Both the position numbers and the translations under genes were made by a program. A DNA stretch of 64,000 bases from Streptomyces sp. NBC_01750. Lineage in GTDB: Bacteria > Actinomycetota > Actinomycetes > Streptomycetales > Streptomycetaceae. The stretch lies in contig NZ_CP109137.1 in assembly GCF_035918095.1 (NCBI RefSeq), forward strand, positions 1,054,001 through 1,118,000. The letters run 5' to 3'. Shown here piece by piece: positions 32,617 to 63,928 of this stretch (position 1 is its first letter; each line of letters begins with the position of its first letter). A model generated the notes under the pieces. It saw only the letters and a list, made by a program, of their open reading frames with translations. It had not been told where the DNA came from and did no database searches.

Positions 32617-32818
32617 GGTAAGTCGCCTCACGCCCTGCGGGACCGTGTCCAACGCGCTCGTGCTCCGCTGCACACATGGTGAACTGTGCCGGCCGATGAG
32701 TCCATCTCCGAATGGAGACCTCTGAAGTCACACCTCCCCCTGGAGCTACCCGCCCTCCCCGGCGAAACCCAAGCTCTCGCCCATCGCCACCGCAGGCGAT
32801 GGAAGCGACGGAGGGTCG

Positions 32819-48478: not shown

Positions 48479-48979
48479 ATGCAGTCCGAGACGCGTACCG
48501 TGGTTGTCGGCGTCGGCAATGACTTCCGGCGCGACGACGGGATCGGTTGGGCGGTGGTGGAGACGCTGCGTAGCCGCGCCTCGGTCGAGCCCCTCGCCTC
48601 CGGGACGGAGCTGCGCATCTGCGGCGGGGATCCCGTCCGGCTCATCGAGTGGTGGGAGAACGCGGATCTCGCCGTGGTGATCGATGCGGCACGCGTCCAG
48701 CCCGGCCATCCGGGCCGTGTGCACCGAATGGAGCTGGGCTCCCGGCAACCGGCCCGGTCCGCGACCGCGAGCTCACACGGATTCGGCCTCGGCGAAGCAT
48801 GGGGCCTCGCCCAGGTGCTCGGGCGGCTGCCGCATCGGCTTGTGATCTACGCCGTCGAGGTTGCCGATGCTTCCGTGGGCAGGGGCCTCTCCCCCATGGT
48901 TGCGGCGGCGGTCGAATCCGTCGCCGACAGCGTTATCTCCGAGATCGTGCGCCACCGGGAAGGTCCGGTGCCCGACTGA
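48479..48979 (+). CDS. [NiFe] hydrogenase maturation protease (HycI/HyaD family)
   Basis: A 166-residue endopeptidase that trims the C-terminus of the hydrogenase large subunit after nickel insertion. The family signature GNDFRRDDGIGWAVVE near the N-terminus supplies the nickel-binding Asp; a second conserved acidic region is DLAVVIDAARVQPGHPG, and SSHGFGLGEAWGLAQVLG carries the conserved His. Length is normal. The presumed substrate is the large subunit encoded at 60361-61752, which ends in DPCxxCxxH plus a 17-residue tail. Start at 48479 follows GATGAGGAG. Confidence 0.88.
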   Translation: MQSETRTVVVGVGNDFRRDDGIGWAVVETLRSRASVEPLASGTELRICGGDPVRLIEWWENADLAVVIDAARVQPGHPGRVHRMELGSRQPARSATASSHGFGLGEAWGLAQVLGRLPHRLVIYAVEVADASVGRGLSPMVAAAVESVADSVISEIVRHREGPVPD

Positions 48980-49128: not shown

Positions 49129-49788
49129 ATGACCGAGACAATGAAGGCGCCTCAGCAGGCAAGTCGCCCCATCACCCAGCACGAGGAGCACGCACTCCTC
49201 ACGGATGGCACAACTGTGCGCATCCGCCCGGTCCTGCCCAGTGATCACGAGCGGGTGTTGGCTCTGTACGAGGTGATGTCCCCGGAGAACCTGCGGCTGC
49301 GGTTCTTTACCACGAACCGGCGCTTGGCAGAGCGCTCAGCAGACCGGCTGTGTGCCTCGGCCATTCCGGGCCGCCGAGCGTTGCTCGCCGAGTCGGACGA
49401 GGCGCTCGTCGACCTCGCCGAGTACGAGCGGTTCGACTACGATCGCGACGAGGTCTGGGCCTCCCTGGCTCCCGATGAGGCCAGGTGTATTGCCGGGCTT
49501 CTGCTGTTCCAGGCCGAGGCCGTGGAACCTCGGCCGCCCAACCCTGCGGGACACGCCGAAGGCGGTTCCGATATCCGGCGACTCCTACCAAATATCACTG
49601 CGAGGACATGTACTGACTGTCGATCAGCCCCTTGCGGAAGGTGGCCCACGATACGGCTCCCACGCCAGTGGAACTTCTCAGCCAACACGGGGCCAGGGTT
49701 CCAGCACGGCGCCCTGAAGCCTCAGGCGTCGGTGCCCTCGCCGGACAAGGGGCACAGTGACCACCGGGCCGGCGAACCGTACGAGTAG
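49129..49788 (+). pseudogene. truncated GNAT-domain protein (protein acetyltransferase-like)
   Basis: The first ~105 residues (TQHEEHALLTDGTTVRIRPV, HERVLALYEVMSPENLRLRF, IPGRRALLAESDEALVDLAE) match the N-terminal half of GNAT domains found in large bifunctional acetyltransferase/acyl-CoA-synthetase proteins of dormancy regulons. After LAEYERF the GNAT core that binds acetyl-CoA (RGxGxG/A) is absent and the frame continues into unrelated, proline-rich sequence to 49788. The start at 49129 follows GGTGAGAGG. Most likely a deletion remnant; a short novel protein cannot be excluded. Confidence 0.62.
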
Positions 49789-49891: not shown

Positions 49892-49907
49892 AGGGACCTT
49901 CGGGCCT
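49892..49907. promoter_or_regulatory. Dos-box-like palindrome upstream of hsp20
   Basis: AGGGACCTTCGGGCCT, 88 bp before the start codon of the Hsp20 gene; it fits the pattern GGGNC-N4-GGNCC shared by several promoters in this island. Confidence 0.5.
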
Positions 49908-49995
49908 CGTTTCGGCCTGGTTGGCCCACTGTGCCGAGGCGCGTGGCGCAGTTGACTGGACGTGTCGCAACCAGAGGAACCGAGGAGGCCCGATC

Positions 49996-50418
49996 ATGGC
50001 TGTACTCGCACGCAAGCAGAAGTTCCCCTTCCCCGACCTGCCGGATTGGTTCGAGGCCTTTCCGAGCCGGTTCACCATGCCTGCGATGGCCGACCTGTAT
50101 CCCATGAGGCTCGAGGAGTACACCGAGAACGACCGGTACATCGTCCGGGCGGAGCTCCCGGGCATCGAGGTCAAGGAGCTGGACGTCACCGTGGAGGACG
50201 GCGTCCTCACCATCAAGGCAGAGCGCACCGAGCGCGATGTGGACAAGAACCGCAGCGAGATTCGTTACGGGTCCCTCGCGCGCAGTATGACCCTGCCCAA
50301 GAGTGCCGACGAGGACGACGTCCGCGCCGAGTACGTCGACGGCATGCTCACGATCAGCGTGGGCCTCGGCCAGGAGAAGTCGGAGACGAAGCACATCGAG
50401 GTCAGGCATCCCGCGTGA
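49996..50418 (+). CDS. Hsp20 / alpha-crystallin small heat-shock protein
   Basis: A 140-residue holdase chaperone. The alpha-crystallin domain runs from about EEYTENDRYIVRAELPGIEV through ELDVTVEDGVLTIKAERTER, RYGSLARSMTLPKSADED and EYVDGMLTISVGL, with a short IEV tail motif (HIEVRHP). It is the counterpart of the mycobacterial Acr/HspX class in a dormancy island. Start at 49996 follows GAGGAGG. Transcribed alone, with a Dos-box-like palindrome ~90 bp upstream. Confidence 0.95.
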   Translation: MAVLARKQKFPFPDLPDWFEAFPSRFTMPAMADLYPMRLEEYTENDRYIVRAELPGIEVKELDVTVEDGVLTIKAERTERDVDKNRSEIRYGSLARSMTLPKSADEDDVRAEYVDGMLTISVGLGQEKSETKHIEVRHPA

Positions 50419-50619
50419 CGGGCCTCGGCGGGCTGCCCGTAGGAAACGGCCACGCCTGCCCGGGCCCCTCAAGTCGAGCCGGCCCGGACAGGCCTCTCTC
50501 ATGAGCCCGGTCCGCGTCACCCGAGCTCAGCCTCACCGCTCGCGGGTTCCGAGGCGACGTGAACGAAACGACAGGGGGGTCCGTCCCCCCAGGGACGTCA
50601 GGAAAGGAGTGGCGAGGCG

Positions 50620-51023
50620 ATGAGGCATCGCAGTGTTGCTGACCTGATGACGCCCAAGGCCGTCGGGGTTCAGCGGGGCACCGCGTTCAAGGAGATGGCG
50701 CGGCTCCTCGACGAGTACGGCATCACCGCCGTGCCGGTCGTGGACGAAACGAGCGGCGAAACGAGCGGCCCGTCGGTGTGGTGTCGGAAGCGGACCTGCT
50801 GCACAGGCTGAGGTCCTGGAGCGGCGCGAGTACCGCCGAGGGGTTGATGACCAGCCCGCCCGTGGTGGCGCTGCCCGGAAGGCCGCGCGGTGTCCTCACG
50901 GCGGACGGGCGGGCGGCGGGGGTCTCGCCCACCCACTCGCCCATCGCCACACGACGAGTCTGGCCCTGCCGCTCACGCGGCAGGGCCAGAACCCAAGATC
51001 TTCAAGAGCCTTCTAGGAAGTGA
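50620..51023 (+). pseudogene. CBS-domain protein remnant, frameshifted and shortened
   Basis: The frame opens RHRSVADLMTPKAVGVQRGT, AFKEMARLLDEYGITAVPVV, the start of a CBS domain, then runs into a 12-bp direct duplication (GAAACGAGCGGC twice at about 50746-50769). After it the CBS homology continues in another frame (GVVSEADLLHRLRS, AEGLMTSPPVVALPG) and stops shortly into the second CBS motif. The C-terminal half and any BON domain are gone. Such CBS proteins bind adenine nucleotides and recur several times in this island; this one should be dead. Ribosome site AAAGGAG precedes the ATG. Confidence 0.8.
50960..50989. terminator. hairpin terminator after CBS remnant
   Basis: Perfect 13-bp inverted repeat (CTGGCCCTGCCGC / GCGGCAGGGCCAG) with a 4-nt loop. 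Confidence 0.75.
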
Positions 51024-51229
51024 CCGGCGCGGCCCCACGTGTGTCAATCACGAGGGCACTTCGCCACAGCCGGACTGGTAAACCCGGCACTGCTGCGTTG
51101 GCCCCGCAGGGGCCAAATCCGCGCCTCACTATTTCTGACCACCAGCCAGCTCTGCGACCCCGCCCCCGCCGTGCACCCTTCGTAGCGGCCGTACACCCTT
51201 CGTAGCGAGGACGGCCTGGTGGTACCACG

Positions 51230-51865
51230 TCACCTTCCTCGGCGCCCGGACCAGTAGGGCTCAACCGTCCCCCATTCCGTATCCCATGCCTCCAGGGTCC
51301 GTCGCTCGAGGCGGCGTCCCCGAAGGCCGAGCACGCCTAGGGAAACGGCAGAGAGCCCGACGAACGCAGACAGGCCCGCAACCGCCGACGCCGCGGCCAC
51401 GTCGACGATTCCGCGTGGTTTCGGCGCGAGCTGACCGTCCCGGGTCACCCAGATCTGCTCCACACTGCCGGACTCGGTACCGGCGGGGACCTCGAGGGCA
51501 CCCCGGTGAACGGTTCCTTGGAAGCGCCACGTCGCCTGGGCCAAGGCCTCACGCACGACACCCGATCGCGTGTCGCCGGCCCCTGCTTCCGCCTTCGTGA
51601 CGGTGATCGCCCTGACCTGCTGGCGCTGCTGCGCCTCGAGGAGGGCGCGGTGTTGCTCGCTGTTCCAGGTCATCCAGGCAGCTGCCACCGCCAGGGACAG
51701 CGCCACCACCACGGAGAGGGCGAATTCCACCACCAGACGGCTGCGGGCTCGGTCGACGGGGCGGCTCAGCGCGCGCGCTTCCCGTCCGGCTGCGCGGAGC
51801 AGGTGGCGCCAGAGAGTGTCCCGTGCGGCTCCAGGCGGCCGCGGTCCGGAAAGTTCCTGCGACAT
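51230..51865 (-). CDS. Rv1733c-like transmembrane protein
   Basis: A 211-residue protein with two membrane helices: ~50-75 (LVVEFALSVVVALSLAVAAA) and ~165-190 (AAASAVAGLSAFVGLSAVSL), bracketing an extracytoplasmic domain containing ATWRFQGTVHRGALEVPAGT and SVEQIWVTRDGQLAPKP. The layout and motifs match the Rv1733c family, whose founder is a DosR-regulated latency antigen of M. tuberculosis; function is unknown. Start at 51865 follows GGGAGG. A Dos-box-like palindrome lies about 120 bp upstream. Confidence 0.82.
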   Translation of the reverse strand: MSQELSGPRPPGAARDTLWRHLLRAAGREARALSRPVDRARSRLVVEFALSVVVALSLAVAAAWMTWNSEQHRALLEAQQRQQVRAITVTKAEAGAGDTRSGVVREALAQATWRFQGTVHRGALEVPAGTESGSVEQIWVTRDGQLAPKPRGIVDVAAASAVAGLSAFVGLSAVSLGVLGLRGRRLERRTLEAWDTEWGTVEPYWSGRRGR

Positions 51866-51983
51866 GACGGGCCTCCCTGCATCGACCGCGGCACGGGCGG
51901 TGTCCACCGCGTCCCGGCTTCGGCGTCGTCTCCACGCTCGGTGATGTGGAGCCTCCCGTCATGAGTCATCAGTCCCTGTCATC

Positions 51984-51997
51984 AGGCCGACCGGCCC
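51984..51997. promoter_or_regulatory. Dos-box-like palindrome upstream of Rv1733c-like gene
   Basis: AGGCCGACCGGCCC (reading GGGCCGGTCGGCCT on the gene's strand), about 120 bp before its start. Confidence 0.45.
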
Positions 51998-52121
51998 AAC
52001 GAGGCTGCCCCCTTCGGGCGCGGCACCGCATCACCCGGAGGCATCCGGTGCCGCCGTCGCCTCAGCTGCCTTGAAATGACACAGCGTCCCATCGACCGAG
52101 TGCACAGTGCACCTCCGGCAC

Positions 52122-52988
52122 TCATACCGCCGTGAGGTGATCAACCACCTCGGTCACGTCGGCCAGTCCCCCAATCCGGGTGAGGAGCCGCTGTGCGTCG
52201 CCACGGGCCATCTGTCCGCGCACATCGACAGCCCCGTTACGAACGGTGACCGTCACCGTCTCCTGGGCGGAGGGGAAATCCTTGGCGAGAATCTTGGACT
52301 CGATCTCCTCCTGGATCCCGGCGTCGTCCCTAACCAGGGCGCTCAGCAGGACGTTCCTTCTCACGACACCGACCAGGTGCCCTTCCTTGTCTGACACGGG
52401 CAGTCTCTTGAGGCGCGAGAGTGAGGCGAGCCATGCCGCCTCGGCGACGGTCGCTTCGGGGTGCACCGTGATCGCCGGCGCGGTCATGAGGTCCTCCGCG
52501 GTCTGGGCGCGTGCGCTGTCGTGCAGCCGCCGACGCACAAGGGCGCCACGCGCACCGGGCTCGTGGCCCGATGCCTCGACGGCGGCCTTCGCCAGCAAGT
52601 CGGATTCCGACACCACGCCCTTCACCCGACCGTCGGTGGCGGTCACGGGCAACGATCCGACGCCTGCGTCGGTCAGAGCCCGGGCAATCGCCAGCAAGGA
52701 TGCATCGCCGCGCACCGATGCAGCCGAGACGTCCATGACGTCGCGGACCAGCAGCGGAATGGCCTCCGTGTCGGACGCGGGTGGAACCTGCTGCGCTCCC
52801 GTCCTGTGAGGAGGGAGCGGTGACCGAGCCACCGGATGGCGAGCCGCGGCCTGCCGGGCGAACGCCGTCGCCACTGCGCCGAGATGCCGAAGCAGCGTGT
52901 GCTGCTCTCGGGGTTCGTCGGCGCGGCTCCCCTCGCCCACGACGCGGCGGGCGTCGGCGCCGGACACAGGGCCTTCGCGCTCGTTCAT
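52122..52988 (-). CDS. CBS-CBS-BON domain protein
   Basis: A 288-residue cytoplasmic protein. After a ~75-residue polar leader, two CBS motifs (LLVRDVMDVSAASVRGDASL through GVVSESDLLAKAAVEA, and AEDLMTAPAITVHPEATVAE through GVVRRNVLLSALVRDD) form a Bateman module for adenine-nucleotide sensing. A C-terminal BON domain follows (VTVTVRNGAVDVRGQMARGD ... GLADVTEVVDHL). Start at 52988 follows GAGGAGGC. It is the only full-length CBS protein in the island; at least three other copies here are broken. A Dos-box-like palindrome lies ~65 bp upstream. Confidence 0.92.
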   Translation of the reverse strand: MNEREGPVSGADARRVVGEGSRADEPREQHTLLRHLGAVATAFARQAAARHPVARSPLPPHRTGAQQVPPASDTEAIPLLVRDVMDVSAASVRGDASLLAIARALTDAGVGSLPVTATDGRVKGVVSESDLLAKAAVEASGHEPGARGALVRRRLHDSARAQTAEDLMTAPAITVHPEATVAEAAWLASLSRLKRLPVSDKEGHLVGVVRRNVLLSALVRDDAGIQEEIESKILAKDFPSAQETVTVTVRNGAVDVRGQMARGDAQRLLTRIGGLADVTEVVDHLTAV

Positions 52989-53050
52989 GGCTGCCTCCTC
53001 GCTCGGAGGGACTCTTCGAACAATCCTTCTCGATCGGGGGCTGTGCCCCA

Positions 53051-53066
53051 AGGTCCGATCGGCCCT
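53051..53066. promoter_or_regulatory. Dos-box-like palindrome upstream of CBS-BON gene
   Basis: AGGTCCGATCGGCCCT, or AGGGCCGATCGGACCT on the gene strand: near-perfect 16-bp palindrome, ~63 bp before the start. Confidence 0.55.
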
Positions 53067-53268
53067 CTCTGAGCGGCGGACGGTCCCCGTCGGACGCTCG
53101 GCTCGGGCGCCCGAAGACCGTCGCCGCCGTGCAGGCTCCGCCGCCTCCGCACCTGCGCCGAGGCTGACGACGACGTCCTTCGTCGCCCGGGAGCGAGACC
53201 CGCGCCGAGCGCGCCCGCACCGGCATCGGAGGGCCTGGTTTCCCGTTCTGGACCGAACGTCCCCTTGC

Positions 53269-53285
53269 AGGGACGTATGGCCCCT
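53269..53285. promoter_or_regulatory. Dos-box-like palindrome upstream of ppdK remnant
   Basis: AGGGACGTATGGCCCCT, about 104 bp before the remnant's ATG. Confidence 0.5.
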
Positions 53286-53388
53286 CTCCCCCAGCACCCG
53301 TACCGGATCAGCGTGGAGCTACACGGGCAGCGGCCCGCCCCGTGGGGGAAACGATGATGACCGATGACCGCAGGGACAGGCGGGACAG

Positions 53389-53640
53389 ATGAGCACGTAC
53401 GTGTATGACTTCGCTGAGGGCGGCCGGGGACATCGCCGATCTCCTCGGGAACAAGAGCGCGAACCTCGCGGAGATGGTTGGCATGGGTCTGCCAGTCCCT
53501 CCCGGGTTTATACGATCACCACGGAAGCGTGTCGGATGTTCCTGGCCACCGGTGATCCTCCCGTCGAACTGAGGCACCAGATCCGTGACCACCCCGCAAC
53601 CCTCGCGGGCGCGGCCGGAAAGCCTCCGCACGCCGCCGCC
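53389..53640 (+). pseudogene. ppdK: pyruvate phosphate dikinase N-terminal remnant
   Basis: PPDK interconverts pyruvate and phosphoenolpyruvate and is part of the Streptomyces hypoxia island. Here the frame opens STYVYDFAEGG, then the homology moves to another frame (DIADLLGNKSANLAEMVGMG, LPVPPGF) and back to the first (TITTEACRMFLATGDPPVEL, RHQIRDH), i.e. one insertion near 53425 and one deletion near 53510. Homology fades by about 53600, so some 80 of ~880 residues remain. Non-functional. Confidence 0.8.
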
Positions 53641-53975
53641 TCGGGCGCGGAATGCGGAGAATGCTCCCGACGACGCCTTCGCTCTGTGTGGCGATCGACG
53701 GACGGATCGACGTAGACACCAAGGCTCTCGCCCCGGAGCAGGGGTCAGACCACGCAACTCCTCGCTGGTGCGCCTCCTCGCGCCATGCCGAGGAAAGCAG
53801 CGCGCCAACGGGACCCGAGGCAGCTAAAAAGGAGGCAACGAGGGCAAGAGTTGTCAAGGCCGCACACGCCGGACAAGCACAGTCACCGGGTGCAGCCGGG
53901 CCCGGCAACGCGTTCGCGCGCGACGAGGGGCACGGGCAGGCTGGAAGTGCTGCTCCGCACCCAACGGGAGGGGCT
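53641..53975. other. spacer between ppdK remnant and SpoIIE phosphatase
   Basis: About 330 bp open in the phosphatase frame but with no domain similarity (Arg/Ala/Gly-rich). Probably non-coding debris plus promoter; GGGAGGGG at its end serves the GTG start at 53976. Confidence 0.45.
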
Positions 53976-56381
53976 GTGAGCAGCAACGAGAAGGGCCACC
54001 TGCGGACAGGGAGGCCGGATCGTGCGGCGGAGGTGATCGGGCCCATGGTGCAGCGGAAACCCTTGTTGATCGTGGACGCGGACGGTTTGGTGTCGGAGTG
54101 GAGCAAGGACGCCGAACGCCTTCTGGGGCACAGCGCTGCCGACGCGGTGGGGCGGCCTGCCACGATCTTGGTCGAAGAACCGGCTCACGCCGACGAGTCC
54201 GTGAGGTCCGCGCGGAGGAGCGGTCGGGTGTCCGGCTGGGCGGAAGGCCTGGACCTGCGCGTGGACCCCGTTCTGCGCGCGGACGGATCGGTGGCCTGGG
54301 GCATCTGGGCAGCCCGTCGGCGCGGAACAGAAGCTGACGAGATGGGCACGGCGCTCCTGGACGCTCTGTTCACCCAGTCACCGGTCGGTCTTGTCGTCGT
54401 TGACGCGGATCTACGCATCCTGCGCGTCAACACCGCCTCCGAAGGCATGCGCGGCGCTCCGGTCGAGCAGTTGCTCGGCCGGCCGGTGACCGAGGCCTTC
54501 GACATGGCTGACCCCGACGGAGTGAAGGCGATGGTCCGCGCAGTGCTCGAAAACGGTGTGCCGATCCTCGACCGGCTCGTACACGGCCGCCCGCCGGCTG
54601 TTTCCGGCCCCGAGCACATCTACTCGGTCTCCGTCTTCCGCCTGCAGGACGCCACCAGTCGTGTGCTGGGGGCCGCGGCCTCCCTGGTGGATGTCACCGA
54701 ACGTGAGCGAGGGCGGGCACGCGCAGCTGTGCGCAACGCCGCGCGCCAGGGGATCGGCGGCTCACTGGACGTGATCACGACCTGCCGTGAACTCGTGGAC
54801 GTGGCGGTACCCGGCTTTGCGGACACCGCGGTGGTGGATGTCCTGGACACCGTGGTGCGCGGGGAGGAACCGCCACTGGGGCCGCTCTTCGGCAATGAAC
54901 CAATGCGGCGCACCGCCTTCAAGACCGGAACCGGACAGCCACAGGCATACCCGGTGGGAGGCACCAGCAGGTTCCCCTTCCCGACCCCGTACACGCAGAG
55001 CCTGGGCGACCTCGAACCTCGCCTTCTGAGCGTGGACGAGACCACCCCGTGGCTGGCCGCCGACCCGGAACGCGCGCAAGTGATGCGCATCGGCGGGGTC
55101 CACTGCATGATCGTGGCTCCGCTGGTCCTGCGCGGCGCCGTGCTGGGAATGACCTGCTTCTACCGCTCGGCCCGGCCCGAGCCCTTCACCCCCGACGACC
55201 TGATTCTGGCCCTCGAACTTGCAGCACGCACCGCCGTGTGCCTGGACAACGCCCGTCGGTACACGCGCGAACACACGATCGCCCTCACCCTGCAGCGGCA
55301 TCTCCTGCCCCAGGGCCCGAGTTTCCAGACGGCTGCCGAGGTCGCTCATTGCCACCTGCCCGCCGAGGCGGGGGGTGGCTGGTTCGATGCCATTCCGCTC
55401 TCCAGCGCCCGGATCGGCCTCGTGGTTGGCGACGTGGCCGGGCATGGCATCCACACCGCCACCACCATGGGCCAGCTGCGTACCGCCATCAACGCGCTGG
55501 CCGCACTGGACCTGTACCCGGACGACCTGCTCGCCCGCCTCAACGACACCGTGATCCGCCTGGCGCGGGAACGGTCGGCCCTGCCGCCCGCGGACCCGCT
55601 GCGCGACGAACCCGTGAGGGCCACCTGTGTGTACGCGGTCTACGACCCCTTCACCGGTGACTGCGCCATCGCCCGCGCCGGATACCCGGCCCCCGTGCTT
55701 GCTCACCCGGACGGCACCACAGAGATCCCCGACGTCCCCGCCGGCCCTTCCCTGGGCGACGAGGAGGCACCCTTCGCCGCCGCGCAGTTCCGGCTCCTCC
55801 CGGGCAGCATCCTCGCGCTGTACACCGACGGATTCCTCGCGGCTTCCCGTGCCGCCACAGAAACAGCCCTGGAGCGCCTTCGCCATGCGCTGTCCCGTCA
55901 TGACCGCCGGCTGAACGACCTGCGCGACGACGCCGTCTACGCCCTCCAGCCCGCCCCGCCCATGGGCGACGACGCCATCCTGCTCCTGGCCCGCACCCGG
56001 ATTCTCAGCGGGGACCAAGTCGCCACCTGGACCATTCCTCCTCACCCGGAGGCCGTCGCTGCGGCCCGCGCCCATGCGGTGCGGCAACTCGCCGACTGGA
56101 AGTTGATCGGGGATTCCCTCCCCACCGAGATCATCGTCAGTGAACTGGTCACCAACGCCATCCGCCACGGCGCACCACCCGTGCAGCTACGTCTCATCAA
56201 GGACCGAACCCTCACCTGCGAGGTCTCGGACACAAGCCCCGCCGCCCCCCACCTCCGTCATGCCCGCACTGTCGACGAAGGGGGCCGTGGCCTCTTCATC
56301 GTTGCCCAACTCGCCCAGCACTGGGGTACGCGGTACACCGAGCACGGCAAGACCATCTGGACCGAGCAAACTCTCTCTTGA
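53976..56381 (+). CDS. PAS/GAF SpoIIE-family phosphatase with HATPase domain
   Basis: An 801-residue signalling protein. Domains in order: PAS 1 (~20-115, LLIVDADGLVSEWSKDAERL), PAS 2 (~125-245, DALFTQSPVGLVVVDADLRI), GAF (~260-420), SpoIIE PP2C phosphatase (~435-670, with AGGGWFDAIPLSSARIGLVV, GDVAGHGIHTATTMGQLRTA and LLARLNDTVIRL) and a C-terminal HATPase (~685-800, ELVTNAIRHGAPPVQLRL, DEGGRGLFIVAQLAQHWG). Such fusions dephosphorylate anti-anti-sigma factors and may bind sigma partners, here probably under redox or hypoxia control by context. The GTG start at 53976 follows GGGAGGGG; the frame stays open 324 bp upstream without homology. Confidence 0.9.
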   Translation: MSSNEKGHLRTGRPDRAAEVIGPMVQRKPLLIVDADGLVSEWSKDAERLLGHSAADAVGRPATILVEEPAHADESVRSARRSGRVSGWAEGLDLRVDPVLRADGSVAWGIWAARRRGTEADEMGTALLDALFTQSPVGLVVVDADLRILRVNTASEGMRGAPVEQLLGRPVTEAFDMADPDGVKAMVRAVLENGVPILDRLVHGRPPAVSGPEHIYSVSVFRLQDATSRVLGAAASLVDVTERERGRARAAVRNAARQGIGGSLDVITTCRELVDVAVPGFADTAVVDVLDTVVRGEEPPLGPLFGNEPMRRTAFKTGTGQPQAYPVGGTSRFPFPTPYTQSLGDLEPRLLSVDETTPWLAADPERAQVMRIGGVHCMIVAPLVLRGAVLGMTCFYRSARPEPFTPDDLILALELAARTAVCLDNARRYTREHTIALTLQRHLLPQGPSFQTAAEVAHCHLPAEAGGGWFDAIPLSSARIGLVVGDVAGHGIHTATTMGQLRTAINALAALDLYPDDLLARLNDTVIRLARERSALPPADPLRDEPVRATCVYAVYDPFTGDCAIARAGYPAPVLAHPDGTTEIPDVPAGPSLGDEEAPFAAAQFRLLPGSILALYTDGFLAASRAATETALERLRHALSRHDRRLNDLRDDAVYALQPAPPMGDDAILLLARTRILSGDQVATWTIPPHPEAVAAARAHAVRQLADWKLIGDSLPTEIIVSELVTNAIRHGAPPVQLRLIKDRTLTCEVSDTSPAAPHLRHARTVDEGGRGLFIVAQLAQHWGTRYTEHGKTIWTEQTLS

Positions 56382-56499
56382 CGCCAGGCCCGTCGACAGG
56401 TGAGGCAGAAAGCCAGCGAGGGCTGTCTGGCCGCCGTGCCGACGCACTCCTTGTCCGCCTGGCCCCTCAATGGCCGTGCCCACGACGACGTCTCCCGTG

Positions 56500-56868
56500 T
56501 CATCGCGCCGCTGTGAGGGTGCCATCGCGGACGGTGCCGCCGAGGGTGACGACTCCGTCAGTGACATCGACGAGGATGCCTGTCGGGAGACCGTGAACAG
56601 GCGGTCGACCCACTTCTCGCCGGACCTCGGCGGCAAGGTCGTCGTCGGGACGGAGAAAGACCTTGAGGAGGTCGGCGCGGCTGAGGATGCCCTGGAGGAT
56701 CCCGTCGGCGTCGACCACGGCCGCCGTTTGATCCGCTGACGGACCATGGTCCCGGGCGGCCTGCGGCAAGGTGGCATTTGCGTGAATGGTGATCGCGGGA
56801 GTGGTCATGAGGTCCCTGGCGAGCACCGCGCCGGCTTTGGCTGTGTCGTCCAGGTTCTGCAGCTGCAC
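56500..56868 (-). pseudogene. CBS-BON protein remnant with compensating frameshifts
   Basis: The reverse strand carries the second CBS motif and BON domain: AGAVLARDLMTTPAITIHAN, ATLPQAAR, then MVRQRIKRRP in another frame, back to VVDADGILQGILSRADLLKV, FLRPDDDLAAEVRRE, then VDRLFTVSRQ in another frame and back to GILVDVTDGVVTLGGTVRDG. At least two pairs of compensating indels are needed to rebuild the protein, the first CBS motif is missing and the BON end is cut. Pseudogene. Confidence 0.75.
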
Positions 56869-56928
56869 GATGAGGCCGGGCTCAGTGTCGTGCTCTACGG
56901 CTCACACACATACGAGCTGCGGCGGCCC

Positions 56929-56945
56929 GGACCCCCGACGGTCCC
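56929..56945. promoter_or_regulatory. palindrome upstream of hydrogenase operon
   Basis: GGACC-N7-GGTCC, 167 bp before the first hydrogenase gene; related to, but wider spaced than, the Dos-box-like sites. Confidence 0.35.
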
Positions 56946-57111
56946 CTGAGCAGGTGCCCGACAAGACACGCCGGGGCGGCCACCGAACGTCAAAGCCAGA
57001 CATCTGACACTCTGTCCCTGGCCGCCGCGGAGGCCGTCGCCTGCCGCGACACGGGAAGTCCCAGCGGCTGTCTATGCCTCCCGTCCGGACAGCCAAGATC
57101 AAGGACCGAGG

Positions 57112-58302
57112 ATGACGGACTCCCGAGATGACGGAGCGTGTACCGACACGCAGACCGAGTCGGTGACCCTCGACCGTGAGGGCCTTGACGCGTTGGTGGG
57201 CGTCCTGAAGCGGCACGGCCGCACGGTGGTCGGTCCCACGGTGCGGGACGGCGCGATCGTGCTGGCCGAGTTGGACTCCGCGGACGAGTTGCCCGACGGC
57301 TGGGGTGTCGAGCTGGAGGCGGGGCAATACCGGATCCGGCGACGGGACGACGCCGCCGTGTTCGCGCACAGTGCGGGGCCGCAGTCGTGGAAGTCGTTCC
57401 TGCATCCGGAACGGGTGCGGCAGTGGACCGCGGACCGCACCCCCGGCGGCGACCTGTCGGTGCGCGAGGACGCGCCTCGGAGCGTCTCGTACGCGTTCCT
57501 CGGAGTGAGGCCGTGCGATCTGCGGGCTATTCGGATCCTGGACCGGGTGATGACCGGCGGCCGGTACCGGGACCCCGCCTACCGGTCCCGACGCACGGGG
57601 GCCTTCCTGATCGCCGTTGAGTGCACGGAGCCCGGAGCGACCTGCTTCTGCGTCTCGATGGGCGCAGGTCCGGCCGTGGATGCCGGGTACGACCTCGCGC
57701 TCACCGAGGTGCTGGACGCCGAGGGCCACCGCTTCCTGTGCAGGAGCGGCAGCGAGGAGGGCGCCGCCGTGCTGGCGGAACTCCCGCACCGGAGCGCGGA
57801 CGACGCCACGCGCACCGCCGCTGCCGGGGCCGTGCGCCAGGCCGCCGAGCGCATGGGCCGGTCCATGCCGCCGGTCGACCTGCGCACCCTGATGCGTGAC
57901 AACCTGGAGGCCGAGCGCTGGGACGACGTCACCTCTCGCTGTCTGAGCTGCGGCAACTGCACCATGGTCTGCCCGACGTGCTTCTGCACGACCACCGAGG
58001 ACATCACCGATCTGACCGGCGACCACGCCGAACGCTGGCGCCGCTGGGATTCCTGCTACGACCTGGACTTCTCAGCGCTGCACACCGGTCCGGTCCGTGC
58101 CACGCCACGCAGCCGGTACCGCCAGTGGCTCACCCACAAGCTGGGCACGTGGCACGACCAGTTCGACAGCTCCGGATGCGTCGGCTGCGGGCGCTGCATC
58201 GTCTGGTGCCCCACCGGCATCGACCTCACAGTGGAGGCGCACGCCCTGCACGACGAGGCCACGAGGACAAAGGGGCCCGGTGACGTTCCCGGCCAGTGCT
58301 GA
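57112..58302 (+). CDS. [NiFe] hydrogenase beta subunit (4Fe-4S, HydB-like)
   Basis: A 396-residue iron-sulfur electron-transfer subunit of a cytoplasmic, group 3b-like (sulfhydrogenase-type) hydrogenase. Two 4Fe-4S motifs lie in the C-terminal half: CLSCGNCTMVCPTC (~residues 281-294) and CVGCGRCIVWCP (~359-370). Upstream are conserved VSYAFLGVRPCDLRAIRILD and GATCFCVSMG. It would carry electrons between the Ni-Fe site and the flavin subunit. First gene of a five-gene, tightly overlapping operon; its end overlaps the next gene by 23 bp. Start at 57112 follows ACCGAGG. Confidence 0.9.
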   Translation: MTDSRDDGACTDTQTESVTLDREGLDALVGVLKRHGRTVVGPTVRDGAIVLAELDSADELPDGWGVELEAGQYRIRRRDDAAVFAHSAGPQSWKSFLHPERVRQWTADRTPGGDLSVREDAPRSVSYAFLGVRPCDLRAIRILDRVMTGGRYRDPAYRSRRTGAFLIAVECTEPGATCFCVSMGAGPAVDAGYDLALTEVLDAEGHRFLCRSGSEEGAAVLAELPHRSADDATRTAAAGAVRQAAERMGRSMPPVDLRTLMRDNLEAERWDDVTSRCLSCGNCTMVCPTCFCTTTEDITDLTGDHAERWRRWDSCYDLDFSALHTGPVRATPRSRYRQWLTHKLGTWHDQFDSSGCVGCGRCIVWCPTGIDLTVEAHALHDEATRTKGPGDVPGQC

Positions 58303-58756
58303 GCCTGGGGCGGGCGTGCTCAGTTCACTCTCCGCGGAGCACCATGGGCAGTTGATGGCGCTCGCGCACCAAGTCAGCCTTCCGGTGTCCACCCGGCTCT
58401 TCGAAGAGGGCGAGCGTGCCGACCGTTTCTGGGTCATCCGCTCGGGCATGGTCGCCCTCGACGTCCAGGTCCCCGGCCGCGGTCGTGCCGTCGTGGAGAC
58501 GCTCGGCGCGGGTCATCTCCTCGGCTGGTCGTGGCTTTGCCCCCCGCGCCAGTATCATCTCGGGGCGGAGGCCAGGAGTGCCATCACCGCCTGGGAGTTC
58601 GATGCCTCTGCGGTCCGCGACCAGTGCGCTGCGCATCCGGCGTTCGGTCTGGCGCTGGTGACCCTGGTCGCCGAGACCATCGGAGACCGACTGCGCGCGA
58701 CACGCACCCGGCTGCTCGACCTGTACGGGCCGCAGGGAGGCGGTCCGCCCGCATGA
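58280..58756 (+). CDS. cyclic-nucleotide-binding-domain protein embedded in hydrogenase operon
   Basis: A 158-residue single cNMP-binding fold (HQVSLPVSTRLFEEGERADR, FWVIRSGMVALDVQVPGRGR, AVVETLGAGHLLGWSWLCPP) with no Crp-type HTH, so it should act by protein contact rather than DNA binding. The gene starts inside the end of the beta-subunit gene (GTG at 58280) and overlaps the gamma gene by ATGA, so it is obligately co-expressed. It may sense a nucleotide and tune the hydrogenase, which is inference. The ligand-pocket Arg is not obvious. Confidence 0.85.
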   Translation: MTFPASAEPGAGVLSSLSAEHHGQLMALAHQVSLPVSTRLFEEGERADRFWVIRSGMVALDVQVPGRGRAVVETLGAGHLLGWSWLCPPRQYHLGAEARSAITAWEFDASAVRDQCAAHPAFGLALVTLVAETIGDRLRATRTRLLDLYGPQGGGPPA

Positions 58757-59556
58757 CCATGGTCCCCCTTGCCTATCGCCTAGTGGATCGCCGACGTGAG
58801 ACGGCCGACACGGTCACGGTCGACCTGGAGCCGACCGGGGAGGCCCTGCACACATTCGCGCCGGGTCAGTTCGCCATGGTGTACGCCTTCGGCGTCGGCG
58901 AGATCCCCGTCTCGGTCTCCCGCATGACCGGAGAACGGCTCACACACACGATCCGGGCGGTAGGTGCGGTGTCCCGGGCACTGTGCGATCTTCCGACGGG
59001 CGCGTCGGTCGGTGTACGCGGCCCGTTCGGCACCGGCTGGAACGCACAAGCGGCGCGCGGCCACGATCTGCTCGTCCTCGGTGGGGGGATCGGCCTTGCC
59101 CCCCTTCGCCCGCTGATCCATGCCGTCCTGTCCGAGCCGCACGCATACGGGCACGTGAACGTCCTCGCCGGTGCACGGACTCCGGACGATCTGCTGTACC
59201 AGGACGAGTTCCCCGACTGGAGACACCCCTTCTGCGGCGTCACGGTCGACCGACCTACCGGCGACTGGACCGCACGGGTCGGAGTCGTCACCTCTCTGAT
59301 CGACGAAGCCCACTTCTCGCCGAGGCACACCACCGCATTCGTCTGCGGTCCCGAGGTCATGATCCGCGCAACCGCCCGGGCACTGGTCCACCGCGGCGTA
59401 CGAGCCGACCGCATCCGGGTCTCCCTGGAACGCAACATGCGCTGCGCGACTGGCCACTGCGGGCACTGCCAGCTCGGACCGCTGCTGCTCTGCCGTGATG
59501 GTCCCGTCGTCACCCACGACGTGGCCGAACCCCTCCTCGCCGTAAGGGAGCTGTGA
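58753..59556 (+). CDS. [NiFe] hydrogenase gamma subunit (FAD/NAD(P)-binding)
   Basis: A 267-residue flavoprotein of the ferredoxin-NADP reductase fold. FAD part: [28 protein letters not shown](P) part: [41 protein letters not shown]-terminal Cys cluster ([19 protein letters not shown]) binds a 2Fe-2S centre. It exchanges hydride with NAD(P)H and passes electrons to the beta and delta subunits. ATG overlaps the preceding stop; one base separates it from the small-subunit gene. Confidence 0.92.
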
Positions 59557-59557
59557 C

Positions 59558-60364
59558 ATGAGTGGTCCTGTGCAGCCCCCGAATTCCGGCCGCCGCCCCC
59601 GAGTCGGCGTGTTCAAGTTCGCCTCGTGCGACGGCTGTCAGCTCACCCTCCTCGACTGCGAGGACGATCTGCTGGCCATCGCCGAAGAGATTGAAGTCGC
59701 CCACTTCCTCGAGGCATCCAGTGATGTCGGGTGCGGGCCGTACGACCTCTCACTCGTCGAGGGTTCGGTCACCACCGCCGAGGACGCGGAAAGAATCAGG
59801 CGCATCCGCGCCGAGTCCCGCCGTCTGGTCACCATCGGTGCCTGCGCCACGGCTGGAGGCGTTCAAGCTCTGCGCAACTACGCTGACGTCACCGATTACC
59901 TGCAGACGGTCTACGCTCGCCCCGATTACATCGCGACCCTCGCCACCTCGACCCCGATCTCCGCCCACGTGCCCGTCGACTTCGAGCTGCGCGGCTGTCC
60001 CATCGACCGCTCCCAGCTCCTGGAGGTCATCACCGCCTTCCTCGCCGGACGCAAGCCCGGCGTCCCGAACCACAGCGTCTGTTTCTCCTGCAAGCGTCGC
60101 GGTACCGTCTGCGTCACCGTCGCGCACGGCACGCCCTGCCTGGGGCCCGTAACGCACGCTGGCTGCGGAGCCATCTGCCCGGCCTACGGACGCGGTTGCT
60201 ACGGCTGCTTCGGACCGTCCGGGACCACCAATCTGCCCGCCCTCGTTCCGCTGATGCGCCGCGACGGGATGAGCGACGAGGATGTCCGGAGGTTCCTGCA
60301 CACCTTCAACGTCACCGCCTTCGCTGCTGTGGAAGAAGCCCTGGAGGAGGAAGACCTGCCGTGA
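59558..60364 (+). CDS. [NiFe] hydrogenase small (delta) subunit
   Basis: A 268-residue small subunit. The proximal 4Fe-4S motif begins [16 protein letters not shown], continues with [34 protein letters not shown] and the C-terminal Cys set ([38 protein letters not shown]). The last resembles the extra clusters of group 3 enzymes. It relays electrons from the Ni-Fe site. Stop overlaps the large-subunit GTG. Confidence 0.94.
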
Positions 60365-61752
60365 CCGAGTCCGCCGCCGTATCGCGCGTTCTGCGCATCC
60401 CGGCACTCACCCGCGTCGAGGGTGAGGCCGCGCTGCATCTGGTGATCAAGGGCCACACCGTCATCAGGGCCCAGCTGAAAATCTATGAACCCCCGCGGTT
60501 CTTCGAAGCCTTCCTCCGCGGCCGCGCTCACACCGAACCTCCCGACATCACCTCGCGCATCTGCGGTATCTGCCCGGTCGCCTACCAGCTGAGTGCCTGC
60601 CGGGCCGTCGAGGACGCATGCGGAGCAGTCGTCGACGGGCAACTCTCCGCTCTGCGCCGCCTGCTGTACTGCGGCGAGTGGATCGAGAGCCAGACCCTGC
60701 ACATTCATTTGCTGCACGCCCCGGACTTCCTCGGCTACGACGACGTGTTCCGCATGTCCCGTGCGCACGTCACTCACGTGCAACGCGGGCTGCGGCTGAA
60801 GCAGGCGGGCAACGCCGTGATCGAACTGCTCGGCGGACGCGCGATCCACCCCGTCAACGTCCGCCTCGGCGGATTCCATCGCACTCCCGCGCGCTCCGAA
60901 CTCCGGCCCCTGGCAGAGCGCCTGCGCATCGCTCTGGAGGACGCCTGGGACACCGTGCGCTGGGTCTCCGGCTTCGACTTCCCCGACGGCGAGTGCGACG
61001 TCGACCTGTTCGCTCTCGCCGAGCCCGACACGTATGCCATCGAGTCCGGCGTGCCCACCGTGTTCCCGGCCGGCGGGACACGGACGCTGCACAGCTTTCC
61101 CGTCCACGTATTCCCGGACCACGTCGCCGAGGAGCAGGTCCCGCACTCCACCGCCCTCCACTCCAGGCTGGACGGCCGTCGGCACCTCACCGGCTCCCTC
61201 GCCCGGTTCGCCATCAGCGGCCACCTGCTCTCCCCATTGGCCCTCCAAGCTGCACGGGAGGCCGGACTGGGCGATCCTCCGCTGCTCCCCCGCGCAGGCG
61301 CCGCCCTGGACAGGGGCTCCACGAACCCGTACCGAAGCATCCTCGTCCGGGCCGTCGAGGTTCTGTACGCGGTCGAGGAGGCCCTCCGGATCATCGACGC
61401 GTACGAGCCTCCGCCACGACCACATGTGGACGTGCCTCCCCGGGCTGCGGTCGGGCACGGTGCCACCGAGGCTCCGCGCGGACTGCTCTACCACCGCTAC
61501 GCGCTCGACAGCGAGGGCCGCATCACCGAAGCCTGCCTGGTCCCGCCGACCGCACAGAACCAGGGCGCGATCGAGGAGGACCTGCGCCATGCCGTTCAGG
61601 CAGAACTGGCGCGCGGAGTGGTGGACGAGTCCGAGCTCGCCCGGCTGTGCGAACGGGTCATCCGGAACCACGACCCGTGCATCTCCTGCTCGGCCCATTT
61701 CCTCGACCTGGACATCGAACGGCATGGCTCGCAGGCCAAGGCCGCAGACTGA
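60361..61752 (+). CDS. [NiFe] hydrogenase large (alpha) subunit
   Basis: A 463-residue catalytic subunit. Nickel ligands: L1 motif RICGICPV (Cys68, Cys71) and L2 motif DPCISCSAH (~438-446), with a 17-residue tail afterwards that the maturation protease should remove. Length and motif style place it in group 3 (bidirectional, cytoplasmic) hydrogenases, 3b-like by subunit composition. It would oxidise hydrogen to reduce NAD(P)+, or the reverse, perhaps during hypoxia or dormancy. GTG at 60361 overlaps the small-subunit stop. The hypABCDEF maturation genes are not in the window. Confidence 0.95.
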
Positions 61753-61851
61753 GGCGTCGCTCGCCGTGCCACGCCGGCCGAACCCGAACCCGAACCCGAA
61801 GCCCTCGCCCACGCCGACCGCCGCGGTCTGCGACGCGGCGCCGCGGAGGCC

Positions 61852-62037
61852 GTGAGCCTGCTACTCGACAGCGGGGTCCCCGTCCGCACGCCGGGCGGCG
61901 TTCCTCACCTCCTGCTCGATGTCCTCGCGGGACATCACCACGTCTCTCTGCGCTGCGTACTGCGCGACTGCGACGTGGAAGGCGTCGTCAACCGCGCGCC
62001 ACACCTGACGCTGAGCCTCGAAACTCCTCGCCTTTGA
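61852..62037 (+). CDS. small hypothetical ORF after hydrogenase large subunit
   Basis: A 61-codon frame from a GTG (SLLLDSGVPVRTPGGVPHLL, LDVLAGHHHVSLRCVLRDCD, VEGVVNRAPHLTL). It is in the same frame as the hydrogenase alpha stop and open back to it, with Glu-Pro repeats and an amphipathic helix in between, so it may be a worn-down separate gene. I do not recognise a family; there is no clear ribosome site. Confidence 0.3.
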   Translation: MSLLLDSGVPVRTPGGVPHLLLDVLAGHHHVSLRCVLRDCDVEGVVNRAPHLTLSLETPRL

Positions 62038-62264
62038 GCCCCGCCAGCTTCGCGCGCGCGACTTCAGCAGAGCGTTCCAGCCTGATCAATTCATAGGGAA
62101 TTCCTGCCACGAACCGGGATCTAGGTGTTGGCGGCAGTTCACAGCCTGCATCCAATCGAAGCATGTGGGTGAGACTCGCCCCCGACGCCCACCGCCGATG
62201 GCCGCCCAGCACGATCGTGTTGCCTCACAGTGCGCCGGTGCACGTCACGTTGCCCCGCGCGTAC

Positions 62265-62281
62265 AGGGGCCTCTCGTCCCT
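62265..62281. promoter_or_regulatory. Dos-box-like palindrome upstream of CBS remnant
   Basis: AGGGGCCTCTCGTCCCT, 106 bp before the remnant's ATG. Confidence 0.5.
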
Positions 62282-62386
62282 GCGTGACGCCCCCATCAGG
62301 ACCTTGCCCGGCGCGATTCCCTGTTCGAGGTTGAATGCATCTGCACGGTCCGCCGCAGGCAGGGCCGTCCCAGGCCAGAAGGAGCC

Positions 62387-62455
62387 GTGATGAGGCACAG
62401 CAAGATCGGCAACCTCATGGTGCAGGATGTGGTCTCGGTGACGGCAGAGACGCGC
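62387..62455 (+). pseudogene. CBS-domain gene, N-terminal scrap
   Basis: About 20 codons, RHSKIGNLMVQDVVSVTAET, match the start of the island's CBS proteins and have AGGAGCC upstream; homology then breaks off into a nitroreductase remnant. Promoter and palindrome upstream are retained. Confidence 0.68.
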
Positions 62456-62469
62456 CCGACAGGGGCTCG

Positions 62470-63230
62470 TAGCAGCTGTACGGCGATCCGTCCCGCACCA
62501 TGCCGAAGGCCGAGCCGACGCACCGTGCGCGGCACCTCGGCTGGGGTGCGGCGGTGTTCAACCTGCGGGTGTCGGCCGCTCACGCGGGCTGGGAACCGGT
62601 CACCACGCTGTTCCCGGATCCGGGCGATCCATGGCTGCTCGCCGAGGTCGGCCTTGCCGAGCCCGCCGGCCCGGACAATGATCTCGAGGTCCTCCACCCC
62701 GCGCTCCGCTGCCGGCACACCAGCAGGCATCCCTATCACGGGCGAGGAGATCCCTGCGGACATCCTGGACGGGCTTCACGGCGCCGCTCTGCTCGAAGGC
62801 GCGCGTCTGCTTGTTCCCGATGCATGGCATGTGCAGGCGGTGCTGGATCTGGTTCACGACGCCGAATACCGCGAGGCCCTGGACCCCGAGGTGCGGGAGG
62901 AGATCGCCCGTTGGACGTGGGCCGACACCGGGGAGGATGCTTCGCGGCGCGAGGGGATCCCCGACGCCGCCTTCGGCCCCCGACAGCGCAACTCCACTTC
63001 TCCGGTTCGGGACTTCGCGGGACACAGGGCCGTTCCCGGCCGCGGCTCGGGCCATGTTCGAGCAGCACCCTCATCTCGCTCTCCTGGGCACGTCGAACGA
63101 CCGGCCTGCGGACTGGTTGTGAGCGGGCCAGGCGATGCAGCGGATCCTGCTCAAGGCCAGCTTGGACGGTCTGGTCACCTCGCTCACGAGCCAGGCCATG
63201 AAGTGGCCCGAGTTGCGGTGGGCCGTGCCC
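62470..63230 (+). pseudogene. Acg-type nitroreductase remnant (frameshifts and a nonsense codon)
   Basis: Acg (Rv2032) family FMN-binding proteins are DosR-regulon members. Homology runs through three frames: QLYGDPSRTMPKAEPTHRAR and LGWGAAVFNLRVSAAHAGWE; then GLHGAALLEGARLLVPDAWH, VQAVLDLVHDAEYREALDPE, EGIPDAAFGPRQRNS; then FEQHPHLALLGTSNDRPADW. There a TGA at 63120-63122 replaces an expected Arg codon, and the frame resumes AGQAMQRILLKASLDGLVTS. The N-terminal ~100 residues and the end after ELRWAV are missing. Dead gene. Confidence 0.8.
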
Positions 63231-63424
63231 TGCTCGATCAAGTTCTTCTCGTGCGTCGCACCGAGGTTGTGGCCTTCCCGGTGCAGAGACGGCACGACGT
63301 GCACCAGCAACAGCGGGAGGCCACGTCGGTGAGCCTCGTCGGCTCCGCACGCCAGCACCGGCTTCCCAGAACTCCGAGGATCGACGCCGACCACGACAGG
63401 AGGACGCACTCCGGGATCCGTCAT
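63230..63424 (-). pseudogene. universal stress protein, N-terminal remnant
   Basis: Reverse strand from 63424: TDPGVRPPVVVGVDPRSSGK, PVLACGADEAHRRGLPLLLV, HVVPSLHRE, the first beta-alpha unit of a UspA-fold protein. Homology then stops where the antisense nitroreductase remnant begins. The ATP-binding Gly-rich loop is absent. USP genes are typical of this island. A Dos-box-like site lies ~75 bp upstream. Confidence 0.75.
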
Positions 63425-63498
63425 GTCTCCTCCCACGGCCACAGGCATGCGGCCGTCGTCCGTTCTGCCACGGTAGGCACGCTCACGCCGCTCGAAGC

Positions 63499-63514
63499 AG
63501 GGCCCATCGGTCCC
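63499..63514. promoter_or_regulatory. Dos-box-like palindrome upstream of USP remnant
   Basis: AGGGCCCATCGGTCCC, arms GGGNC / GGTCCC, ~75 bp upstream of the remnant's start on the other strand. Confidence 0.5.
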
Positions 63515-63814
63515 GCCGTGGGGAAAACCGGCCTTCGTCGCCGGACCGAACCGCGCAACGCGTCGGGGATCACTTCACCGCGATGAATTGCGGCGCCCCT
63601 GAAGCGTCATCGAGTCGGTTTGGGGCGCCGATGTGTCGGCCGAGCCGGACCGGCCGACAGTGTGAAGGCGGAAAGGGCCCACCCGCTTCTCGCGGATCCT
63701 GTGCGCGGTGCACGGCTGCCGGCCGCTTCTCCGCGCCCTCTTCGGGCCCTTTCCGTCAATTCCATGCAACCACTCCGGGGCGTGTGCGCCACCAGGGCCC
63801 AACAGTCCAATCCC

Positions 63815-63830
63815 GGTCCCGGTCGGCCCT
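63815..63830. promoter_or_regulatory. Dos-box-like palindrome upstream of terminal CBS gene
   Basis: GGTCCCGGTCGGCCCT, ~99 bp before the TTG start of the last gene. Confidence 0.5.
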
Positions 63831-63928
63831 ACCTGCCGCGCCCTGGCGCGCGGAGGCTCAGGACACGGACAGCTGATGTCCGTACCTGCGATGACCGTGT
63901 CGATGCGTGCAAGGGGCGGTGATGTCCG

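Follow-up and report, generated by a model that had tools for sequence, protein, structure and literature searches.

In a 64,000-nucleotide stretch of the chromosome of Streptomyces sp. NBC_01750 (positions 1,054,001-1,118,000; hereafter the window), the last 14.2 kb hold an island of genes and gene remnants, many of them preceded by a 16-bp palindrome. These palindromes are very probably operators of OsdR, the Streptomyces regulator of the DevR/DosR type. The island, as read from its sequence, would be a partly dead satellite of the OsdR stress regulon that is controlled in trans.

OsdR-type boxes, singly and in pairs, upstream of island genes

To avoid circularity, sites were scored with a symmetric weight matrix whose sole input was Table 1 of PMC5069765, with its 25 distinct S. 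coelicolor OsdR sites; these are predictions, several of them confirmed by gel shift in that paper. The consensus of the matrix is AGGGCCGATCGGCCCT, the same as the OsdR consensus published there, and 16-bp palindromes matching it lie upstream of genes in the island. A first-pass annotation of this DNA had likened the palindrome to the mycobacterial Dos box and pointed to OsdR as the Streptomyces relative; comparison with the consensus in PMC5069765 bears out the latter. The window contains no exact copy of the mycobacterial core, GGGAC-N4-GTCCC, and the 19 copies present genome-wide equal the count for the reversed control. The window sites have the streptomycete form, not the mycobacterial core.

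Between 49.8 and 64 kb, 8 sites score at least 11 (5.6 per 10 kb; 7 without the site at 55567) and 5 score at least 13, compared with 0.5 sites of at least 11 expected from the background density. The background, consisting of 12 stretches of 20 kb evenly stepped along the same chromosome (240 kb), contains 9 sites of at least 11 and 2 of at least 13 (0.38 and 0.08 per 10 kb); in the window itself, the 49.8 kb ahead of this interval contain 1 and 0, respectively. Using column-permuted palindromic matrices, the mean island count at 11 or above is 0.66, and none of 300 permutations reaches 8. Lowering the threshold to 9 gives 10 island sites (permutation p 0.007), and raising it to 15 leaves 1 (p 0.07). 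The 14 kb that continue past the window (L005:1-14000) contain 2 sites of at least 11, which is not significant (p 0.13). The Poisson p value for the island count, about 1e-7, is optimistic because the interval is bounded by the sites of the first-pass annotation itself.

Could the sites be chance GC-rich palindromes in a genome of 70% GC? Loose patterns are no commoner genome-wide than their reversed controls: GGGNCNNNCGGNCC, a simplified form of the pattern in the first-pass annotation, occurs 364 times on the forward and 376 times on the reverse strand (445 and 444 in the control), and GGGCCGNNCGGCCC occurs 29 times (37 in the control). It is the full 16-bp matrix, together with clustering, that carries the finding. 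Chance is nevertheless an extremely improbable source of the boxes, given that no permuted matrix matches the island count, that matrix density is at the null level, and not equal to that of the island, in the 12 other stretches and in the remainder of the window, and that paired boxes keep a fixed spacing (see below).

The seven sites of the first-pass annotation are all present, displaced by at most 1 bp (Table 1). Six of them score at least 11 and the one at 62266 is weak; the sites at 53249 and 55567 had been missed. Measured from the box centre to the likely start codon, the distance ranges from 70 to 132 bp over the island. Both the gene comparison and the map of boxes to starts agree with the earlier remark that the sites precede intact and dead genes alike.

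Table 1. Boxes, genes and gene remnants of the island. Ranks are among all positions of the 64-kb window; distances run from box centre to likely start codon.
Feature	Position	Strand	Score (rank)	Distance	Remarks
HycI-type hydrogenase maturation protease	48479..48979	+			PF01750; top upstream score only 6.1
GNAT/acyl-CoA ligase gene remnant	49129..49788	+			No Pfam match; no box; 49174-49506 aligns to the main OsdR island's 910-aa copy (residues 10-122)
Box before hsp20 (AGGGACCTTCGGGCCT)	49892..49907		13.2 (4)	96 bp	
hsp20	49996..50418	+			PF00011
CBS gene fragment	50575..50876	+			Weak box (7.0) at 50573
Rv1733c-family protein	51230..51865	-			NCBIfam NF050032, 92.3 bits (cut-off 80)
Box before Rv1733c-family gene (CAGGCCGACCGGCCCA)	51983..51998		11.0 (9)	125 bp to Met15; ~83 bp to GTG	
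CBS-BON type protein	52122..52988	-			PF00571 matches two CBS stretches; Pfam does not call BON
Box before CBS-BON (AGGTCCGATCGGCCCT)	53051..53066		18.5 (1)	70 bp	Top site of the window
Tandem partner of 53269 (TGGACCGAACGTCCCC)	53249..53264		11.4	132 bp	20 bp from 53269
Box before ppdK remnant (AGGGACGTATGGCCCC)	53269..53284		14.25 (2)	112 bp	
ppdK remnant (N-terminal fragment)	53389..53509	+			By main-island comparison; 53429-53509 = residues 14-40 of main-island ppdK, 74% match
PAS-GAF-SpoIIE phosphatase with HATPase	53652..56381	+			Pfam; no upstream box
Site inside SpoIIE-type open reading frame	55567..55582		13.7 (3)		Precedes no gene start
CBS-BON remnant (second)	56500..56868	-			Pfam and main-island comparison; no box
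NAD(P)-linked NiFe hydrogenase operon (beta, cNMP-binding, gamma, delta, alpha)	57112..61752	+			
Weak box before CBS/nitroreductase remnant	62266..62281		9.2 (17)	113 bp	
CBS start-like fragment (by eye) and nitroreductase remnant	62387..63227	+			Several frames; 62387 reading frame without Pfam match; 62464-63227 aligns in three pieces to the main-island nitroreductase (513 aa; residues 223-476)
Universal stress protein (USP) remnant	63071..63424	-			PF00582, 21.8 bits (below cut-off 24)
Box before USP remnant	63499..63514		13.1 (5)	82 bp	Weak partner (6.7) at 63520, 21 bp off
Box before CBS gene	63815..63830		11.4 (7)	99 bp	Gene starts at 63922 and leaves the window; weak partner (6.9) at 63794, 21 bp off

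The boxes are frequently paired at a spacing of 19–22 bp, which is a new observation. A partner scoring at least 5 lies at this distance from 5 of 10 island sites of at least 11 (four pairs, one counted from both sides: 53249/53269, 63499/63520 and 63794/63815 in the window, L005:4330/4351 just outside). The same holds for 23 of 46 such sites in the three other islands of the genome and, in the 54 streptomycete loci left after de-duplication, for 59 of 217; a second box thus accompanies roughly one in two of the stronger sites of this genome and one in four of those in relatives. The remaining 4-bp offset bins, seven in all between 15 and 46 bp, are empty for the island; no such bin exceeds 2 in the other islands or 9 in the relatives. 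The words 'tandem', 'spacing', 'paralog' and 'hydrogen' are absent from the main text of PMC5069765. In M. tuberculosis, DevR is reported to bind cooperatively to adjacent high- and low-affinity sites (PMC3029386), and by analogy the streptomycete pairs may be cooperative sites of this kind.

The hsp20 box was aligned with 11 relatives that have the hsp20 start in reach, chosen by similarity to this stretch; since L198 and L063 are the same locus, ten are distinct. In nine of the ten the GGGAC core is present at the aligned position; L200, the exception, reads GTGAC, and there is variation in the spacer and the right half. Eight of the ten have a site of at least 11 in the interval from −170 to +30 bp relative to the start, although in several of these the top-scoring site differs from the aligned one. 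Three relatives have the CBS-BON start in reach: the aligned box scores 11.1 in L195, and the other two score 3.0 and 5.7.

For a wider survey, 61 hydrogenase neighbourhoods were reduced to 54 streptomycete loci by removing 7 near-identical ones (the Amycolatopsis locus L094 is outside the 61), and a box was counted if it scored at least 11 between 250 bp upstream and 60 bp downstream of the projected start. Boxes precede the genes for GNAT in 12 of 12 cases, Hsp20 in 7 of 8, USP in 38 of 66, HycI in 20 of 47, OsdR in 4 of 9 and CBS-BON, found with the window query, in 2 of 2. The glycoside-phosphorylase-like gene has one in 1 of 11 cases, and the single Rv1733c and CBS_L005a genes have none (0/1 each). 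As background, 9 of 768 equivalent intervals of the genome itself contain a box.

Four OsdR paralogues and the question of control in trans

The first-pass annotation placed the regulator outside the window. This agrees with our searches: no OsdR-like match at E <= 1e-55 is present in the window or its continuation, and the GerE-domain proteins of the window lie outside the island. Elsewhere on the same chromosome of this 8.98-Mb genome there are four candidates, DevR-type OsdR paralogues distributed over three other islands (2.007, 4.773, 4.795 and 8.011 Mb). The main OsdR island, at 1.925–2.008 Mb, contains 27 sites of at least 11 in 83 kb, 14 of which score at least 15. Its OsdR has DevR (3c3w, E 5e-77) as top match in the PDB, followed by VraR (4e-40). 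The three further paralogues, with 82, 78 and 76% identity, lie in box clusters with USP genes and OsdK-like kinases, and the EKTVKN segment of the DNA-binding domain is common to all four. The main island also encodes a GAF-GAF-HisKA_3 kinase of the DevS/OsdK type. Among the NCBIfam matches listed, the top models for the main-island OsdR and kinase are MadR and MadS, far below their cut-offs.

Boxes are associated with all four DevR-type copies and are close to the start in two of them: a box of 20.7 lies about 83 bp upstream of the main-island osdR, and two boxes lie within about 160 bp upstream of the 4.773-Mb copy. A box pair is also found about 300 bp before the kinase adjoining the 8.011-Mb copy. 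The two smaller box clusters span 4.766–4.799 Mb and 8.008–8.014 Mb and together hold three OsdR paralogues with OsdK-like kinases; the kinase match beside the 4.773-Mb OsdR is limited to the C-terminal part. Close to the main island lies a second OsdK-like kinase (L025:16493-18236), with its GAF and kinase parts in two different frames.

NarL-family sites can resemble each other, raising the question whether another NarL/LuxR-type regulator, rather than an OsdR paralogue, binds the palindromes. The genome has 54 GerE-domain matches, and two of these are in the window outside the island, near 2714 and 30872; the one near 30872 adjoins a HisKA_3 kinase, with which it forms an ordinary NarL-type pair (30872-32673). 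We consider such a regulator quite unlikely. Neither window GerE protein is among the OsdR-like matches at the E-value threshold given above, strong boxes stand close upstream of two osdR copies and the other two copies lie within box clusters, and the sites behind the matrix are OsdR sites, of which several were confirmed by gel shift (PMC5069765).

Assuming that OsdR is the regulator, a phosphorylated dimer would bind the 16-bp palindrome approximately 70–130 bp before the start codon. The second, usually weaker box 19–22 bp away (about two helical turns) could accommodate a second dimer that binds cooperatively, and the presumed outcome is activation in response to low oxygen or nitric oxide. 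The hsp20, Rv1733c-family and CBS genes would still be wired into this circuit. The ppdK gene, a USP gene and other members are dead yet retain their operator. Control would be exerted in trans by one or more of the four OsdR paralogues from the three other islands.

Several results weigh against assigning the island to OsdR. Some of its genes have no box: scores stay at or below 5 throughout the interval from −300 to +30 bp around the starts of the SpoIIE-type gene, of the GNAT and second CBS-BON remnants and of all genes in the hydrogenase operon. The site at 55567, the third highest in the window, is intragenic and probably not a promoter operator, which indicates that single high-scoring sites can be chance. 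Only one island site reaches 15, and compared with the main island the boxes tend towards lower scores (median 13.2 versus 15.1, p = 0.09). Among the 54 loci, boxes are rare or absent before ppdK (1/11), nitroreductase (0/10), CBS-BON found with the L005 query (5/72), OsdK (0/10) and the cNMP gene (4/54). For the 4.795- and 8.011-Mb osdR copies the nearest start-side box is 1.7–2.0 kb away, and the sequence does not tell which of the four paralogues acts.

The extent of the regulon must also be narrowed. The first-pass annotation described the whole island as one regulon, an interpretation that is right in kind and too broad, and so is only partly supported. A box does not precede every transcription unit of the island, and several have none. 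As the hydrogenase operon, the HycI protease gene and the SpoIIE-type gene are without a good box, a single regulon covering all of them is unsupported.

The hydrogenase operon and reciprocal gene loss

The reading frames of the hydrogenase operon contain no internal stops. For the alpha, beta and delta subunits the nearest NCBIfam models are NAD(P)-linked sulfhydrogenase subunits, and for the gamma subunit a sulfite reductase subunit ranks first. The make-up and order of the subunits suggest a group 3b hydrogenase, an assignment kept tentative because all of these scores are below cut-off. A small cNMP-binding protein (58295-58756) is encoded between the beta and gamma genes, as in 20 of 20 relatives, and its paralogues adjoin CBS-BON genes. 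Homologues of the hydrogenase at E <= 1e-20 are found in 37 of 199 Streptomyces genomes, including this one, and among the named matches listed those most similar to it come from Streptomyces.

In the streptomycete loci a box precedes 24 of 53 hydrogenase-operon homologues, counted at HyhB. This is a new observation and parallels the dos-regulated Hyh of M. smegmatis. The internal genes HyhG, HyhS and HyhL, taken as controls, have a box in 0 of 54 loci each. A site of at least 13 precedes hyhB in 11 of 20 relatives, nine of these 50–57 bp from the projected start. We also examined hyhB in the best 80 of at least 582 confirmed stretches, of which 75 remained after removal of three without a hyhB match and two at contig ends. 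A box of at least 11 is present in 18 of 41 loci from Streptomyces, Kitasatospora, one Amycolatopsis and one actinobacterium record, and in 3 of 34 from other actinobacteria including mycobacteria; in the latter, either the Streptomyces matrix is not transferable or boxes are absent. With 200 permuted matrices, the 41 loci give a mean of 1.2 and a maximum of 19, compared with the 18 observed. We think that the high-count permutations are those close to the real matrix; as some of them reach the observed count, the mean of 1.2 and the internal genes are the fairer controls.

The window's own operon is an exception to this streptomycete trend, as it has no box: the top score in its intergenic region is 1.4. 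Seven of its eight nearest relatives (L062-L065, L084-L087) are also without one. Four of 20 hydrogenase neighbourhoods (L062, L064, L066, L081) have no box of at least 12 in 20 kb. Of the corresponding genomes, G058 and G088 have only distant OsdR matches (62% and 54%), and G148 and G106 have matches at 75–77%; because of the latter two, OsdR presence fails to explain the boxless neighbourhoods. Hyh of M. smegmatis is described as a member of the dos regulon (PMC8125079), and msmeg_3931-3927 is reported to be up at low oxygen (PMC2799521). Among the literature matches listed, no title links OsdR to a streptomycete hydrogenase, and in the literature searched the one paper containing Streptomyces, OsdR and hydrogenase uses the last word a single time, in another sense.

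Comparing the window with the main island (34–85% identity; two best matches per place, E <= 1e-6) shows that each has lost different genes, a reciprocal decay that is also new here. The main island retains ppdK, the GNAT/CoA ligase and the 513-aa nitroreductase, of which the window has only fragments. The hydrogenase is retained in the window and reduced in the main island to a 29-aa match of the alpha subunit (2005557-2005643; 69% identity, E 1.6e-6) and a HypD fragment covering 39 of 351 positions (2006474-2006590). HycI is present in both. A full-length HypD is encoded at 8.28 Mb, near another likely hydrogenase.

This decay raises the possibility that the boxes are relics, that is, that the island was once under OsdR control and its operators are now drifting, with little regulation left. 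Many neighbouring genes are dead, box scores tend to be lower than in the main island, and a good box is missing at HycI and the hydrogenase operon, where many relatives have one. However, the strongest box of the window (18.5) precedes an intact CBS gene, the core of the hsp20 box is kept across relatives and half of the island sites (5/10) retain the pair spacing. We therefore regard relics as an unlikely, though not negligible, explanation, and favour OsdR operators that still serve the intact genes.

Within the island, a segment of about 96 bp (50921-51017) that forms a strong hairpin is 89–94% identical in a number of Streptomyces genomes. It is covered by no tRNA and no Rfam family and is perhaps the end of a mobile element or a conserved terminator. 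A tRNA or Rfam element as a marker of the island was likewise not found: the window contains no tRNA, and no Rfam family reaches the gathering threshold between 44 and 64 kb.

Comparison with the OsdR and DevR/DosR regulons

Taken together, the data extend the OsdR regulon of S. coelicolor by a proposed operator grammar, in which boxes are paired about two helical turns apart, and by a candidate target, the hydrogenase operon. The island is also a case of operators outliving their genes, and of two related islands with different gene losses. In a broader interpretation, OsdR would form a multi-copy network in which four paralogues (72–83% identical), spread over three islands, use a two-box operator of fixed 19–22 bp spacing to control a satellite that has no regulator, and the NAD(P)-linked Hyh would be a widespread Streptomyces OsdR target, as in M. 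smegmatis, from which the window copy has escaped. We give this broader proposal an even chance. If true, Dos-type control of hydrogen metabolism would be common to mycobacteria and streptomycetes.

The known system nearest to the island is the OsdR regulon of S. coelicolor (SCO0167-0181 and SCO0198-0219), which, as described in PMC5069765, shares with it the 16-bp consensus, the USP, ppdK and nitroreductase families, a similar distance between box and start, and a box before osdR. In contrast to that regulon, the island is a satellite without a regulator gene, the four OsdR paralogues reside in three other islands, and hydrogenase genes are included. The DevR/DosR regulon of M. tuberculosis and M. 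smegmatis shares a homologous regulator, a related palindrome, an Rv1733c-family gene and USP genes, as well as adjacent sites of high and low affinity with reported cooperative binding (PMC3029386). The half-site differs, being mostly GGGCC in the streptomycete boxes and GGGAC in mycobacteria. In M. smegmatis the dos regulon is reported to include the Hyh hydrogenase (PMC8125079, PMC2799521), the counterpart of an operon that in the window has no box and in many other streptomycetes does.

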